Shown: positions 28,683 through 35,413 of the stretch, one piece after another
Layout of the letters: each line of letters starts with the position of its first letter
Numbering within the stretch: the stretch's first letter is position 1
Assembly: GCF_023156505.1 (NCBI RefSeq)
Contig: NZ_JALNMJ010000004.1
Coordinates: forward strand, 248,001-312,000
Direction of reading: 5' to 3'
Length of the DNA stretch: 64,000 nt
From: Roseibium sediminicola
GTDB taxonomy: Bacteria; Pseudomonadota; Alphaproteobacteria; Rhizobiales; Stappiaceae
Program-made: the position numbers and the translations under genes
Notes under the pieces: model-generated
The model's input: the letters and a program-made list of their open reading frames with translations, nothing else
Databases searched by the model: none
Told to the model about the DNA's origin: nothing

Positions 28683-28721
28683 AAAAAACAAACGGCCCGC
28701 ACCTTCAGGTAACGGGCCGCC
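28683..28721 (-). terminator. Intrinsic terminator after pccA
   Basis: On the minus strand, CGGCCCG and CGGGCCG arms (28713-28719 and 28693-28699) enclose a 13-base loop and are followed by TTTGTTTTTT. It lies between the stop of pccA and the HAD gene. Confidence 0.85.
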
Positions 28722-28757
28722 GCACTATCGATGGTTCCAGACCACTGTCAATCCGGC

Positions 28758-30770
28758 TCAGGAAAACTCCATGATCACGGCGTCGACCGCGAGACTGTCG
28801 CCCGGCTTGGCCTTGATGGCGGTCACCGTGCAGTCCCGCTCGGCGCGCAGCACGTTTTCCATCTTCATGGCTTCGACAACGGCAAGCTGCTCGCCTGCCT
28901 TGACCTCCTGGCCCTCGCTGACCGCAATCGACACGACCAGACCCGGCATCGGGCAGAGAAGCATCTTTGAGGTATCCGGCGGCAGTTTTTCAGGCATCAG
29001 CTGGTCAAGCTCGGCAATCCGCGGCGTCATCACCTTGGCAACGACGGAATAGCCCTGCCAGTCGAGCCGGTAACCACCCCTCACCTTGCGCACCTGAACC
29101 GTGACGGTTCGGGACCCGACCTTGCCGGACCACATCGGATCGCCCGGTGCCCAATCGGCCTCCACATTCATGACCGGACCATCGCCGATGGCCACGTCTA
29201 TTTCGACCGGTGTGCCGGGATAACCCGCTGCCAGCCGGATCGGCACATAGGTCTTGTCCAGCTTGATGACCCAGTCCTCGCGGATCGCACCGGAGTGCGG
29301 CCGCAGACGTCCCGGCAGGTGGTCAAGCCGCTCGCGCTCGAGCGCGCCCATGGACAGGGTCACCGCGGCAAGAACCGCATAGGCTTCGGCGTCCGGGACC
29401 GCCGGTGCGAAGCCGTCCGGATATTCGTCGGCAATGAAGCTGGTGGCCAGATCGCCGGAACGCCAGCGCGGATGGTTCATCAGCGCGGTCAGGAAGGGCA
29501 CATTGTGCTGAATGCCGTCGACATAGAAGGCGTCCAGGGCCGAACTCATGGCATCAATCGCCTCCGCCCGCGTCGGTGCGTGGGTGATCAGCTTGGCGAT
29601 CATCGGGTCGTAGAACATCGAGATTTCCGAGCCCTCGACCACGCCGGTATCGTTACGCACGGTCACCGCATCGGTTGTCATTTCCTCCGGCGGCCGGTAA
29701 CGCACCAGCCGGCCGATGGAAGGCAGGAAATTCCGGTAGGGATCTTCCGCATAGATGCGGCTTTCCACGGACCAGCCGTTCAGCTTGACGTCACCCTGCT
29801 TCAGCTGCAGCTGTTCGCCTGCGGCCACGCGGATCATCTGCTCCACCAGGTCGACCCCGGTGATCAGCTCGGTGACCGGGTGTTCCACCTGCAGGCGGGT
29901 GTTCATTTCCAGGAAGAAAAAGCTCTTGTCCTGCCCGGCGACGAACTCGACGGTGCCGGCGCTGTCATAGTCGACGGCCTTGGCCAGCGCGACCGCCTGT
30001 TCTCCCATCAGCCGGCGGGTTTCCTCATCGAGCAGCGGCGACGGCGCTTCCTCGATGACTTTCTGGTTGCGGCGCTGGATCGAGCATTCACGCTCGCCGA
30101 GATAGATCGCGTTGCCGTGCTTGTCGCCCAGCACCTGGATCTCGATATGGCGCGGGTTCTCGATGAACTTCTCGATGAACACCCGGTCGTCGCCGAACGA
30201 GGACGCGGCTTCGGACTTGGAGCGGGCATAACCGTCACGGACTTCATCGGCATTCCAGGCAATGCGCATCCCCTTGCCGCCGCCGCCTGCCGAGGCCTTG
30301 ATCATGACCGGATAGCCGATGTCCTCGGCGATCTCGACCGCCTGGTCCGGCGTCTCGATCACACCGAGATAGCCGGGTACCGTGCTGACATTGGCGTCGT
30401 TGGCGAATTTCTTTGATTCGATCTTGTCGCCCATGGCCTCGATGGCGCGCGGATTCGGACCGATCCAGACAATGCCCTCCTTGGCCAATGCTTCCGGGAA
30501 GCTGGCCCGTTCGGACAAGAAGCCATAGCCCGGATGAACCGCTTCGGCGCCGGTTTCCTTGCACGCGGCGATGATCTTGTCGGCGATGAGGTAAGACTCG
30601 GCGGCTGCCGCCGGACCGATATGCACTGCCTCATCCGCCATTTCGACATGAAGCGCCTCTCGGTCGGCGTCGGAATAGACGGCGACCGTCTTGATGCCCA
30701 TGCGGCGCGCGGTCTTGATGACCCGGCACGCAATCTCACCACGGTTGGCGACAAGTATTTTCGAGAACAT
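28758..30770 (-). CDS. pccA: Propionyl-CoA carboxylase alpha (biotin-carboxylase/biotin-carrier) subunit
   Basis: A 670-aa protein. The biotin carboxylase domain (about 1-450) has the ATP-grasp motif KASAGGGGKGMRI and the bicarbonate/biotin signatures YLGERECSIQRR and FLEMNTRLQVEHPVTE. A linker region (about 500-600) precedes the biotinyl domain with biotinylated Lys636 in EAMKMEN. It carboxylates biotin with ATP and bicarbonate; the beta subunit at 32582-34114 then carboxylates propionyl-CoA to methylmalonyl-CoA. Pairing with pccB nearby and the MFSKILVANRG start support PCC over methylcrotonyl-CoA carboxylase. Confidence 0.93.
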   Translation of the reverse strand: MFSKILVANRGEIACRVIKTARRMGIKTVAVYSDADREALHVEMADEAVHIGPAAAAESYLIADKIIAACKETGAEAVHPGYGFLSERASFPEALAKEGIVWIGPNPRAIEAMGDKIESKKFANDANVSTVPGYLGVIETPDQAVEIAEDIGYPVMIKASAGGGGKGMRIAWNADEVRDGYARSKSEAASSFGDDRVFIEKFIENPRHIEIQVLGDKHGNAIYLGERECSIQRRNQKVIEEAPSPLLDEETRRLMGEQAVALAKAVDYDSAGTVEFVAGQDKSFFFLEMNTRLQVEHPVTELITGVDLVEQMIRVAAGEQLQLKQGDVKLNGWSVESRIYAEDPYRNFLPSIGRLVRYRPPEEMTTDAVTVRNDTGVVEGSEISMFYDPMIAKLITHAPTRAEAIDAMSSALDAFYVDGIQHNVPFLTALMNHPRWRSGDLATSFIADEYPDGFAPAVPDAEAYAVLAAVTLSMGALERERLDHLPGRLRPHSGAIREDWVIKLDKTYVPIRLAAGYPGTPVEIDVAIGDGPVMNVEADWAPGDPMWSGKVGSRTVTVQVRKVRGGYRLDWQGYSVVAKVMTPRIAELDQLMPEKLPPDTSKMLLCPMPGLVVSIAVSEGQEVKAGEQLAVVEAMKMENVLRAERDCTVTAIKAKPGDSLAVDAVIMEFS

Positions 30771-30973
30771 GAATTTCCACCCGGCTGGATCGTTTTGCTT
30801 TTTGTAGGCCTCCCCTCAGGGCCGCGCAACTTATCCAAAGGGCGAGACGTCTTTTTGCCGATTCGGCACGACTCTTGCCCGATCATCCCCTTATTGACGG
30901 AAAGAGAGAGGCAAAACCGGCGGCAACTCTGCCGTTTATCTGAATATTAAGAAAGCTATTGCAGGAATTACGG

Positions 30974-31471
30974 ATGAAAAAGGGGAAGAGCCGCATGATA
31001 AGTCGCTTCACAAGTGTGTTTCTTGCTGGCGCAATGCTGTCGACCGCAAGCCTTGCGGACACGATCGGCAAATGGAACCGTGGCGAGATCAACGGTTTTA
31101 CACGCTACTGGACCGGCAACAAAGAGGGCGCAAGTTTTGTGGTTTGGTGCCATCCGGAGCGGAAGGTCAACGGCACCTTGCTGCATATCGAGATCGGCGG
31201 ACATACCCCAACCCCGAACACCCGGATCAAGCTGATCATGGATCAGGAGATTCTGGAACTGCCCGTCAACGCACAGGGCTACATAGACAGCGGCTGCGCG
31301 ACCTGTTCCGACAGTTTCGGCTATGTCTGGCACAAGCTGCGCGCGTCTCACACCCTGGCGGTCAAATTTCACGACAACCGCTATGCTGGCTTTTCCTTGA
31401 GAGGTGCGCGGCAAATCCTGCCAGGTCCCGTCTGTCCGACTGACTGGCAGAAAAAGAACCCGAACAGTTAG
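30974..31471 (+). CDS. Secreted Cys-containing protein, paralogue A of a tandem pair
   Basis: A 165-aa protein with a signal peptide (about 1-27, cleavage after SLA). It shares a clear pattern with the next gene: GKWxxxxxxGxxRYWTxNxxGAxFxxWC, GYI...C..CSD, YxWHxLRxS, then RYAGFSLxGxRxI and a final VC. Four Cys are conserved between the two, suggesting disulfides in the periplasm. No family is recognised. The ATG at 30974 has AGGA about 7 bases upstream. It is transcribed opposite to the pcc genes. Confidence 0.75.
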   Translation: MKKGKSRMISRFTSVFLAGAMLSTASLADTIGKWNRGEINGFTRYWTGNKEGASFVVWCHPERKVNGTLLHIEIGGHTPTPNTRIKLIMDQEILELPVNAQGYIDSGCATCSDSFGYVWHKLRASHTLAVKFHDNRYAGFSLRGARQILPGPVCPTDWQKKNPNS

Positions 31472-31584
31472 CGCCCTCGCTGTTTCTTCCGGCCGAACCC
31501 GGCAGCGACCGATAAAAGTTCAAATTTTAAGTATTTCTTAGAGACACCCTGCAATTCTGTCATTGACAGATTTGGGTAGGGCAA

Positions 31585-32052
31585 ATGCTGAAGGTTTCTC
31601 TATTTTTCGCGGCGCTATTGATCGCGGCGTCCCCCTTGCAAGCTGCTGAACAGGGCAAGTGGCACAACGATTCCGCCCATGGGTACGAGCGCTATTGGAC
31701 CGTGAACTCAACGGGTGCGCGCTTTACCATCTGGTGCCCACCCAACCACGATGCGCGCGGCGCGCTGATCGGCATCGATATCAAGGGGCAGCGTCCTTCA
31801 CCGGACTCGCTGGTCAGGGTCGAACTGGACCACAAGCTGGTGAAGTTCAAGGTCGGTCCCGACGGCTATATCCGCAACGATTGCCCTGCTTGCAGCGATA
31901 ACCTGACCTATTTCTGGCACCGCCTGCGCTCTTCCGTGAGATTCAAGGTCCAGTTCGAGGACCGGCGCTACGCCGGCTTTTCGCTCAAGGGCGTTCGCGA
32001 AGTCACACCGCACTCGGTCTGCGCAAGCCAGCTGGCTCATAACAGCCAATAA
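31585..32052 (+). CDS. Secreted Cys-containing protein, paralogue B of a tandem pair
   Basis: A 155-aa protein with a signal peptide (residues 1-20, cleavage after LQA). It is homologous along its length to the gene 113 bp upstream: AEQGKWHNDSAHGYERYWT against DTIGKWNRGEINGFTRYWT, DCPACSDNLTYFWHRLR against GCATCSDSFGYVWHKLR, and RRYAGFSLKGVRE against NRYAGFSLRGARQ. The four Cys are kept while the rest has diverged, which points to an old duplication with a maintained fold. The function is unknown. Confidence 0.75.
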   Translation: MLKVSLFFAALLIAASPLQAAEQGKWHNDSAHGYERYWTVNSTGARFTIWCPPNHDARGALIGIDIKGQRPSPDSLVRVELDHKLVKFKVGPDGYIRNDCPACSDNLTYFWHRLRSSVRFKVQFEDRRYAGFSLKGVREVTPHSVCASQLAHNSQ

Positions 32053-32223
32053 TCGGGATTTTCCGGTCCAATCCCGCGTTCAAGTGCTCCGGGTCACAAT
32101 TCCGCGTGCCCAATCATCGCATACTGGCGCTCATGATTTCCCCACGGGTAATATCATGCCTGGAAGCCTGGCTGCTCTTGGCCGGAGTTCCGGACAGATG
32201 ACCCGACGGACCAGGAGGCATCG

Positions 32224-32538
32224 ATGCGAAAATTTCACTTTCTATCAGCGGCGTTCGTTCTGGCGGGCCTTGCCATGACGACGGCCGCGGAAGCACGGCC
32301 CGACTTGCGCCGCATGACCTGTGCCCAGGCGCAGCAAATGGTGGCACAGCATGGCGCCGTCGTGTTCACAACGGGTCAGCACACCTATTCGATGTTCGTT
32401 TCGAACCTGAGCTACTGCGACCGCAACCAGGTGCTGTTCACCCAATACGGCCAGACCCGCGACGCCCGCCGGTGCCCGGTTGCCTATGAATGCCGGGAAC
32501 CGCTGTTCCCGCGCGGCGGCTTCAACCGCTGGGATTGA
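32224..32538 (+). CDS. Small secreted Cys protein of unknown function
   Basis: A 104-aa protein with a signal peptide (about 1-23, cleavage after AEA). The mature part has four Cys (MTCAQAQ, LSYCDRN, RRCPVAYEC) and a hydrophobic/aromatic middle (VVFTTGQHTYSMFVSNLSY). It is unrelated to the tandem pair upstream. It converges on pccB, 43 bp from that gene's stop. No family name is recognised by me. Confidence 0.7.
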   Translation: MRKFHFLSAAFVLAGLAMTTAAEARPDLRRMTCAQAQQMVAQHGAVVFTTGQHTYSMFVSNLSYCDRNQVLFTQYGQTRDARRCPVAYECREPLFPRGGFNRWD

Positions 32539-32581
32539 CCCCACGAGGGTCAGTTCCAGCGGTAATGGGCCGTGTAATCGT

Positions 32582-34114
32582 TCAAAGAGGGATGTTGTCG
32601 TGCTTTTTCCAGGGCGTCTCCGCCGTCTTGGAGCGCAGCAGCGCCAGTGCCTTGGCGACCCGGCGGCGGGTTGAATGCGGCCGGATGACATCGTCGATAT
32701 AGCCGCGTTCCGCCGCCACGAAGGGATTGGCGAACCGGTCCTCGTAATCCTTGGTGCGCTTGGCGATCTTGTCCTTGTCGGCAAGTTCCGAGCGGTACAG
32801 GATCTCGACCGCGCCCTTGGCGCCCATCACCGCGATCTCGGCCGACGGCCAGGCATAGTTGATGTCGCCGCGGATGTGCTTCGAGCTCATCACGTCATAG
32901 GCGCCGCCATAGGCCTTGCGGGTGATCACGGTGATTTTCGGCACCGTCGCTTCCGCGTAGGCGAACAGCAGTTTGGCGCCGTGCTTGATCAGGCCGCCAT
33001 ATTCCTGCGCGGTGCCCGGCAGAAAGCCCGGAACGTCGACATAGGTCACGATCGGAATGCCGAAACAGTCGCAGAAGCGCACGAACCGCGCCGCCTTGCG
33101 GCTGGCATCGGAATCCAGAACCCCGGCCAGAACCATCGGCTGGTTGGCGACGATGCCCACCGTGCGTCCCTCGATGCGGCCGAAACCGGTGAGGATGTTG
33201 CCGGCGAAACTGCCCTGGATCTCGTAGAAGTCGCCTTCGTCGACGGTCTTCAAGACAAGCTCCTTCATGTCGTAGGGCTTGTTCGGATTGTCCGGGATCA
33301 GCGTGTCGAGGCTGGTGTCGATCCGCTCCGGATCATCGTAGTTGGTCAGTTCGGGCAGATCCGCCTGATTGTTCATCGGCAGGAAGTCGATCAGCCGCCG
33401 CATCTCCTGCAGGGCTTCCACGTCGTTGTCGAAGGCGCCGTCCGCGATGGAGGATTTGGTTGTGTGGATCGAGGCGCCGCCGAGTTCTTCCGCCGTCACC
33501 GTCTCATTGGTCACGGTCTTGACCACGTCCGGACCGGTGACGAACATATAGGACGTGTCGCGGACCATGAAGATGAAGTCGGTCATGGCCGGTGAATAGA
33601 CGTCGCCGCCCGCGCAGGGCCCCATGATCAGCGAAATCTGCGGAATGACGCCGGAGGCCAGCACATTGCGCTGGAACACTTCGCCATAGCCACCCAACGC
33701 CGCAACGCCTTCCTGGATGCGGGCGCCGCCCGCGTCGAACAGGCCGATGATCGGAGCCCGGTTCTGCAGGGCCATGTCCTGAAGCTTGGTGATCTTTTCC
33801 GCGTGGGTCTCAGACAGGGATCCGCCGAAGACGGTGAAGTCCTTGGAAAAGACGTAAACGGTTCGGCCATTGACCGTGCCCCAGCCGGTCACAACCCCGT
33901 CGCCCGGGATGTGCTGCTCCTCCATGCCGAAATCGGTGCAGCGATGCTGCTTGAACATGTCGAACTCTTCGAAGGAGCCCTCGTCCAGGAGAATCTCTAT
34001 GCGTTCGCGCGCCGTCAGCTTGCCTTTGCTGTGCTGTGCATCGATACGGCGCTGCCCGCCACCCAGCCGGGCCGTCTCCCGGCGCTGTTCCAATTCGGCC
34101 AGAACTTCTTTCAT
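32582..34114 (-). CDS. pccB: Propionyl-CoA carboxylase beta (carboxyltransferase) subunit
   Basis: A 510-aa carboxyltransferase that transfers the carboxyl group from biotin to propionyl-CoA, feeding the methylmalonyl-CoA route to succinyl-CoA. The two crotonase-like halves carry the oxyanion-hole glycines ([39 protein letters not shown]) and the acyl-CoA motif [17 protein letters not shown]. The ATG at 34114 has GGAGG about 6 bases upstream. The open frame extends to 34489, but that part has no homologous look. It lies 1.8 kb from pccA on the same strand, with three opposite-strand genes between. Confidence 0.93.
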
Positions 34115-34462
34115 CCGGTCCTCCCAATATTCACTTGCTGAGGGCGTACCATGATCGCTCAAAAGTGCATAGTCAGCACATGGGCTTAAGGGAAAGCCTG
34201 TCGAGGGCACGGCGCTCGAACCGCATTCCCCGAAGGGCGCTGGTGGAGAACGCTCAATAAGGTGATCCCCATCACATTCCCGCCGATTTCCGTCCGTTGG
34301 GCCCCGGGTTCGCTTTGCCTCCCAAGCATTCTGACGTAGCGTGATCTCATTAGCCATTAGGACGATTTCGTCGCGGCACACAGGCCCGTTCCAGCAGTCC
34401 GCCCTGTCGATCGGGACATGACACTGCAAGCCGGGACCGCATTCTTCTGTCGGAGTACAAGC
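34115..34462. other. 348-bp divergent intergenic region, no gene seen
   Basis: It lies between the starts of pccB (minus) and the OmpA-fold gene (plus), so it should hold both promoters. I found no RNA gene, repeat or obvious operator in it. Confidence 0.4.
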
Positions 34463-35413
34463 ATGTCCGAAAAGTTCGTGATTGAACATTGTGACGGCGC
34501 GATCACCCTCGCCCGTCTTCAGTTTTTTGATATCAGCCAGTCAAATCTCAAGGAAGAACACAAGGCCTGGCTCAGGCGCCATGTCATTCCTCTGCTGCAA
34601 GGCAATGGCAGCATCAGCGTGGTCGGCCTGTCCAGCAGAAGCGGCAAGGCCGCCTACAACAAGGCCCTGTCCAAGAAGCGGGCCGTTGCCGTTCAGCTGT
34701 TCCTTGAAGAAACAATGCAGAAGAGTTTTCCGTTCGACCTGGTCGACGGGCTCGGGGAATCGCTGGCAGAGGAGATGGGGCAGGAAGACGGCGTCGAGGA
34801 CGGCCAGTTCCGGGCGGTCATGATCTATGTGCATTCCATACCGACACCGCCCAACCCCAAGGTCATCAAGACCCCGAAAAAGATGAAGCCGAAACCCAAA
34901 AAGGCATCGACCCTGTGGGTTGGTATCGGCGAAAGCCACTCGGGCGATCTTGTCGCCGTCGGACGCTACAACTGGAATGGCCGGCTCTACCGGGCAAGCG
35001 CGGACGATGGCGGTTTCGTCGACTATGTCGACCTGATGGCCGACGGCTGGAAACTCGGCGGCGGCCTCGGCGGCAGTGTCGGCGCGATTGTCGTCGTTGC
35101 CCATGGCGTGCAATCCCCGCACGAGTTCAACAAGAAGGGCGAATGGTCCGACTGGGATCTCGACCTCGCCATCGGCGGCAAGCTCGGCGATGTCCTGAAA
35201 GGCCTGAAGGGCATCGGCAAGATCGTCACCACCATGGAAAAATACGAGGAACTCAGCCATGCGGCGATCGAGATCACCAAGAACAAGGGCTTCGTGAAGA
35301 AAGGCCTCTACACCATTCCGATGCTCGGCGTCGGTGCCGGGCTCCACGTGTGGACCGGCCGCAAATACGGCGACGTCACTGTGATTTCGACCGGCAGAAC
35401 CAAAATGAGATAA
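34463..35413 (+). CDS. Signal-less OmpA-fold protein with unrecognised C-terminal domain
   Basis: A 316-aa protein with three parts. Residues about 10-125 follow the OmpA/MotB peptidoglycan-binding pattern: a central [31 protein letters not shown] aligns with the family's I-x-V-x-G-x-T/S, then N-x-x-LS-x-x-RA-x-x-V. Residues 127-148 are a Pro/Lys linker. Residues about 149-316 form an unrecognised domain with a Gly-rich hydrophobic segment (195-213) and a Trp/Asp stretch, [14 protein letters not shown]. There is no signal peptide or transmembrane anchor, which is odd for an OmpA-like protein. The ATG at 34463 has GGAG 8 bases upstream. It might be a secreted effector or a cytoplasmic scaffold; neither is shown. 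Confidence 0.72.

Follow-up and report, generated by a model that had tools for sequence, protein, structure and literature searches.

Two paralogous genes between pccA and pccB

The window, by which we mean the entire 64,000-nucleotide stretch of DNA analyzed here, comes from Roseibium, a genus of the Stappiaceae (order Hyphomicrobiales) according to a taxonomy look-up, and carries two adjacent genes, A and B, between pccA and pccB (Table 1). The initial annotation described these genes as tandem paralogs in this position, transcribed against the pcc genes and sharing conserved sequence blocks with four common cysteines. We confirm the positions and the opposing strands, and both proteins contain the blocks and the four Cys. 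A (165 residues) and B (155 residues) share 39% identity and 61% positives over 145 aligned residues (E = 1e-45). The description of both as secreted is likewise upheld, in that their N-termini resemble signal peptides by eye, in a region of low model confidence. The likelier start of gene A is an in-frame ATG at position 30995 rather than 30974; GGGGAAG lies immediately upstream of this ATG, and most other alignment rows, with starts set by a script rule, begin at or show a Met in this position.

Neither A nor B has a significant match in Pfam, NCBIfam, or PADLOC, and the third exported-looking protein of the interval, P3, has none in Pfam or NCBIfam. Sequence searches of the PDB with A, B, or the family profiles as query returned nothing significant, no Rfam family falls within 28700–34600, and no promoter-like site was found within 30700–32620. 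The nine named relatives of the A locus come from Roseibium, Labrenzia, a Stappia, and one alphaproteobacterium. Just past pccB, at 34418–35413 (+), is a gene for an OmpA-domain protein (8e-7), which is present in 7 of 47 other positive loci.

Table 1. Features of the pccA–pccB interval and its flanks, in positions of the window
Feature	Coordinates	Strand	Remarks
Gene A, exported-looking four-Cys protein, ancestral-type copy	30974..31471	+	Clade A, 27 rows, support 100/99
Gene B, duplicate, exported-looking four-Cys protein (C51, C100, C103, C146)	31585..32052	+	Clade B, 15 rows, support 100/98
Codon of B Cys51	31735..31737	+	Invariant in aligned superfamily members; putative partner of Cys146
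Codons of B C100-x-x-C103	31882..31893	+	Lost together in 4/63 family rows; putative local disulfide
P3, small exported-looking Cys protein, 104 residues	32224..32538	+	Remains between pccA and pccB in loci lacking A and B
pccA, propionyl-CoA carboxylase alpha, flank	28758..30770	-	
pccB, propionyl-CoA carboxylase beta, flank	32582..~34108	-	Start from homolog length; ORF opens at 34489

Distribution of the family and its chromosomal address

By profile search, the family turns up in 48 of 87 Stappiaceae genomes, spread over six of the seven genera. The window's genus contributes 37 of these matches (45 genomes searched, eight of them lacking the family) and the other genera 11 (42 genomes searched). 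Two matches are present in 16 of the 45 genus genomes, with B intact in 15 and represented by a truncated frame in one. A search with B itself matches 31 of 61 genomes; these all belong to the 37 of the same genus, and none is among the 24 genomes from other families of the order. In the broader samples, at least 9 of 347 genomes of the order match, seven of the nine being Stappiaceae and one of the two outsiders a 36-residue partial match; at least 3 of 385 match in the class sample, the window's own genome included, and at least 8 of 398 in the phylum sample, including the own genome and one from the Stappiaceae, with L208, L210, and L211 among the partial matches. Synteny of pccA, the pair, and pccB across the Hyphomicrobiales, as envisaged in the initial annotation, does not survive these counts (none of the 24 genomes from other families, and two matches outside the Stappiaceae in the order sample). 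Nor is the pair itself a conserved unit, since B is intact in just 15 of the 45 genus genomes.

For the comparison of loci, a single stretch was taken from every other positive Stappiaceae genome (47), which together with the window makes 48. No more than 1 kb separates the gene from pccA in 44 of these 48 genomes, and the pcc locus is the Stappiaceae address for the family. In G062, pccA is ~10 kb from the gene, and three genomes, all of genus g31, carry the gene at a site other than pcc, with folB following it; in two of these three, the preceding gene resembles lipB as read from sequence. Among the 39 negative Stappiaceae genomes, the 17 pcc loci that were fetched retain pcc without an A/B gene, and P3 is found between pccA and pccB in 16 of these 17 A-negative loci. 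In L171, five tblastn hits to P3 fall within the same pccA–pccB interval. Twenty pccA-adjacent stretches from other families of the order, one of them ending at a contig end, contain no A, B, or P3 at E 1e-3. The notion of a fixed metabolic locus therefore stands within the Stappiaceae and fails for the three genomes of one genus with the gene beside folB away from pcc and for the 17 loci with pcc alone.

Duplication and linkage to folB

In a tree of 63 family rows, the A and B sequences form separate clades (Table 1), and the gene of G032 stands beside B (97/93); branches outside these two clades are poorly separated, and the G062 row is a very long branch. Sequences were labeled A, B, or S by differences in score, and G091, labeled A yet positioned outside the A clade, is counted as outside. 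Four positions are fixed differently in A versus B at ≥90%. Of the 27 A-clade genomes, 15 have an intact B, which, the G032 gene excepted, never occurs without A. A and B are duplicates within one Roseibium lineage.

Outside the A and B clades, 20 of 21 rows have the gene adjoining folB (dihydroneopterin aldolase, named from a reading of the sequence), including three with pcc elsewhere; G091 has no folB beside the gene. The order is gene then folB in 19 of the 21, and in G032, sister to the B clade, folB comes first. Conversely, none of the 27 A-clade genomes (26 fetched loci and the window) has folB at the site, and a folB search within the 64-kb window found none (best E 1.1). In five genomes without A (L158, L159, L164, L168, and L171), folB is located between pccA and P3. 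Taken together, the survey of loci presents pcc as the address, folB as the older neighbor, P3 as the steadier resident, and the A–B pair as the variable part. In the simplest story, the ancestral gene would have traveled with folB and undergone an old duplication in one Roseibium lineage, perhaps around folB; departure of folB from the site would then have made A and B neighbors, and B would have been lost repeatedly. A duplication enclosing folB is suggested on the basis of one genome, G032.

Purifying selection and the pattern of conserved cysteines

Nei–Gojobori dN/dS ratios, calculated with the first 24 codons excluded, have a median of 0.10 for A (34 of 378 pairs usable, dS 0.05–1.2) and 0.06 for B (12 of 105 pairs usable). 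Such low ratios (~0.1) reveal A and B to be real genes under purifying selection. All four Cys are present in 44 of 45 distinct sequences of the genus, the exception being the A protein of G006 (G006-A), which lacks C100 and C103; in the DNA of G006-A the differences are densely clustered and may stem from a sequencing artefact or a local frameshift. The four Cys are invariant across the 38 rows of alignment A1 because this alignment omits G006-A, along with some near-identical rows. In the set of 63 family rows, all four Cys are kept in 59, and the other four rows (G016, G062, G091, and G006-A) lack both C100 and C103; no row has lost just one of these two, and none has lost C51 or C146. The CxxC motif is also missing from the aligned Advenella plasmid member and from the four aligned phage members, and C51 and C146 are invariant in the superfamily alignments of phage, plasmid, and genome members. 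Loss of the two CxxC cysteines together, with C51 and C146 retained, suggests C51–C146 and C100–C103 as the disulfide pairs.

Kinship with phrog_3429 and with phage and plasmid proteins

The initial annotation could name no family for the two proteins; this is superseded by profile–profile comparison, by which A and B join phrog_3429 and can be placed, on sequence grounds, as a chromosomal branch of an undescribed family of putative secreted proteins that includes plasmid and phage proteins. An hhalign comparison of 38 Stappiaceae rows with seven others (four phage, one plasmid, and two genome members, no row being common to both alignments) gives a probability of 99.0, E 5.8e-18, and a score of 109.7 over 136 columns, relative to 10.1 for the reversed control and at most 22.0 in 60 column shuffles. 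With signal peptides removed, the probability is 98.4 and the score 86.8 over 118 columns (60 shuffles, ≤21.4), and an unrelated exported family (P3, 44 rows) scores 24.5 over 13 columns. W29, G36, C54, and C148 are invariant in the seven phage, plasmid, and genome members, with the matching W, G, and two Cys found in A and B. The L078 row of alignments A3 and A4 lacks its last 15 residues and includes upstream residues.

The phrog_3429 model matches 18 of 34 members at E ≤1, best of all L026 at 4.6e-6 over residues 6–57 only, with longer matches to L015 (2.6e-4) and L022 (7.7e-4). Direct comparison with the window proteins is weak for B (0.071) and gives no match for A; a search of the window's genome with this model at E 0.001 does not find A or B, and the bridge sequence L154 has no match to it at E 0.1. 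The model matches 3 of 398 phylum genomes, the own genome not among them, and none of 14 control genomes. Intermediates connect these sequences. A search from B reaches a plasmid protein of Methylobacterium (2e-12, residues 24–148), which in turn matches phrog_3429 at 1.2e-6; the G236 protein, from another family of the order, leads to plasmid proteins of Advenella and Methylobacterium, the latter leads to Plesiomonas, and the Plesiomonas and G950 proteins lead to jumbo phages and a Punavirus, four phage members having been examined. Searches of phages with B and with the Advenella protein returned no match at E 0.01.

The phage members derive from jumbo phages of Serratia, Erwinia, and Klebsiella and from an E. 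coli Punavirus, and a Salmonella phage member is found at E 0.3 by sequence and at 3e-10 with phrog_3429. The Punavirus gene is present in 84 of 5,426 E. coli genomes, and 82 of these 84 places are on plasmids. Plasmid members come from Advenella, Methylobacterium, and Plesiomonas, the last with WYL, CbtA, and RadC genes nearby. An HTH/WYL-type regulator is encoded upstream of both the Plesiomonas (L213, 5199–6411) and the G950 (L209, 50–1956) members, and the gene upstream of the E. coli Punavirus member (L217, 3296–4471) weakly resembles a PTP-like phytase (E 7.4e-6, 26.6 bits versus a cut-off of 27). A second phage family, phrog_23186 (67 residues), matches 9 of the 34 members at E ≤1 (best 4e-4), and one phage member matches DUF1176 at E 0.0012, below the cut-off. 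E. coli IrmA, suggested by the Plesiomonas context, was not among the PDB matches listed for a profile or for two of the members and was dropped. A literature search returned no mention of phrog 3429 and nothing related on Labrenzia, folB, and pcc.

Predicted fold and comparison with IalB and MotY

AlphaFold2 models of B (pLDDT 84.7) and A (pLDDT 89.7) are of good confidence from around residue 25 (B) and residue 31 (A) onward and have a predicted topology of six strands, a long helix, two strands, and a short helix, to which A adds one extra short helix. The B model aligns with IalB (3dtd, Z 9.0) and MotY (8z5n, Z 8.3; 2zf8, Z 7.5), the next row being at 4.3; the A model aligns with MotY (Z 8.7), IalB (Z 8.0), and MotY (Z 7.8), the next row being at 4.2. 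IalB had been written down as a guess before the fold search. Best Z values of 7–8 are typical for models with no clear Foldseek match according to the aligner's own note, so that values of 8–9 are modestly above what is common; the gap to the next rows is nonetheless wide. The initial annotation had recommended structure prediction for learning whether the two proteins form one fold; both models resemble IalB and MotY. Foldseek against the PDB gives nothing at E 1e-3 or better, with IalB and MotY not among the best 50 rows. The A model also matches a "putative adhesin" of a Serratia phage (E 1.8e-6, TM 0.54), the same protein that the sequence of a plasmid member matches at 4e-3.

Sequence profiles stop short of IalB. 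Six family alignments score 12.5–18.3 against an IalB profile by hhalign, within the shuffled range (40 shuffles, maximum 22.5); this profile was built from 57 of 62 fetched loci, five having been dropped at contig ends or for want of a readable frame. An earlier IalB comparison using Stappiaceae sequences alone (33 rows, one a wrong-strand translation) gave no homology. The IalB family model PF06776 (cut-off 22.1 bits) matches none of 38 members at E ≤1 and, in the own genome, identifies four other places, not A or B. Given the lack of a Foldseek match, the commonness of such best Z values, and these profile results, we term the domain IalB/MotY-N-like rather than a member of IalB. IalB and MotY both act in the envelope; because their functions are not the same, the fold points to no particular target.

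Proposed role

A and B are a real, constrained, duplicated gene pair and a chromosomal branch of an uncharacterized phage and plasmid family. Our main reading, to which we assign a probability of about 0.5, sees in them single-domain binding modules of the periplasm, from a family common to plasmids and phages, with B a dispensable duplicate. A Sec-type signal would export both proteins, and each would adopt an IalB/MotY-N-like fold of strands around one long helix, in which a C51–C146 disulfide may join strand 3 to the C-terminus and a C100–C103 disulfide may form just before the helix. By analogy with the MotY N-domain on the flagellar basal body, A and B could dock onto a component of the envelope, A probably retaining the old role and B serving as an optional, specialized copy. 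An enzymatic role appears unlikely, since conservation across the superfamily is limited to a W, a G, two Cys, and a handful of other positions, and the setting in propionate metabolism looks incidental.

Carriage by phages and plasmids makes envelope guarding the main rival. A and B might be a domesticated phage or plasmid protection protein, a periplasmic guard of the envelope against competing phages or lytic enzymes, acting by superinfection exclusion or as an inhibitor, that was fixed and then duplicated in the Stappiaceae. The superfamily members in jumbo phages, the Salmonella phage, the Punavirus, and plasmids speak for this origin, whereas PADLOC has no match for seven superfamily proteins (A, B, and five others), the four fetched phage stretches show mostly neighbors of unknown function, and the Stappiaceae gene keeps one neighborhood under purifying selection; we judge it unlikely. 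A broader account, in which a phage or plasmid family that modifies or guards the envelope was captured, fixed beside folB, and duplicated within a single family of marine bacteria to give a two-protein envelope module with the fold of IalB and the MotY docking domain, uniting all three as a superfamily, strikes us as rather doubtful.

The neighborhood itself might instead suggest that A and B work together with propionyl-CoA carboxylase or with folate synthesis, for instance as an envelope sensor under joint regulation with pcc or folB. Proximity to pccA (≤1 kb in 44 of 48) and adjacency to folB (20 of 21 rows outside the A/B clades) invite this reading, which we nevertheless regard as very improbable: the gene is on the strand opposite to pcc, the 17 fetched negative genomes retain pcc without it, in three genomes it sits apart from pcc, and folB, which acts in the cytosol, is gone from the site across the whole A clade. 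A role in host or surface interaction like that of Bartonella IalB, by a secreted or surface-exposed protein in association with algae or marine animals, is suggested by the resemblance of the A and B models to the IalB fold and by a review that proposes much of IalB to be secreted in the face of conflicting reports of its location (PMC6299047). This role is quite improbable in our estimation, because sequence profiles do not join IalB to the family, four IalB-family genes reside elsewhere in the genome, and the phage and plasmid members point to a more general role in the envelope.

The window genes matter for a family that spans alpha-, beta-, and gammaproteobacteria, jumbo phages, and a P1-like phage group, and whose scanned members lack a Pfam or NCBIfam match above cut-off. 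They form a chromosomal branch of it in which the gene has been gained, lost, and duplicated in nature, and this opens its role to study by simple deletions. Should the fold link hold, IalB-domain proteins gain small single-domain relatives.

Comparison with known systems

IalB (PF06776; 3dtd from Bartonella henselae) aligns with the models of B and A over 115 and 111 residues, respectively, at the Z values given above; members of its family are small exported proteins with paired cysteines, as A and B appear to be, and their cysteines differ from those of A and B in position along the chain. One IalB-domain protein, RgsG of Sinorhizobium, is described as periplasmic and essential, with a location at the growing cell pole and a molecular function that is unknown, and the mechanism of IalB-domain proteins is described there as unknown as well (PMC7327166). 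The MotY N-domain (2zf8 and 8z5n) aligns with A and B at Z 7.5–8.7 over 117–123 residues and is involved in binding to the flagellar basal body; the second, peptidoglycan-binding domain of MotY is missing in A and B (PMC3872333). Finally, phrog_3429 (158 residues) is similar to A and B in length, in a signal-like N-terminus, in the N-terminal W and the G, and in a Cys at the end of strand 3 and another near the C-terminus, and it differs in that the four aligned phage members are without CxxC. Unlike the phrog_3429 members, the Stappiaceae copies are chromosomal, keep to one neighborhood, and are duplicated.
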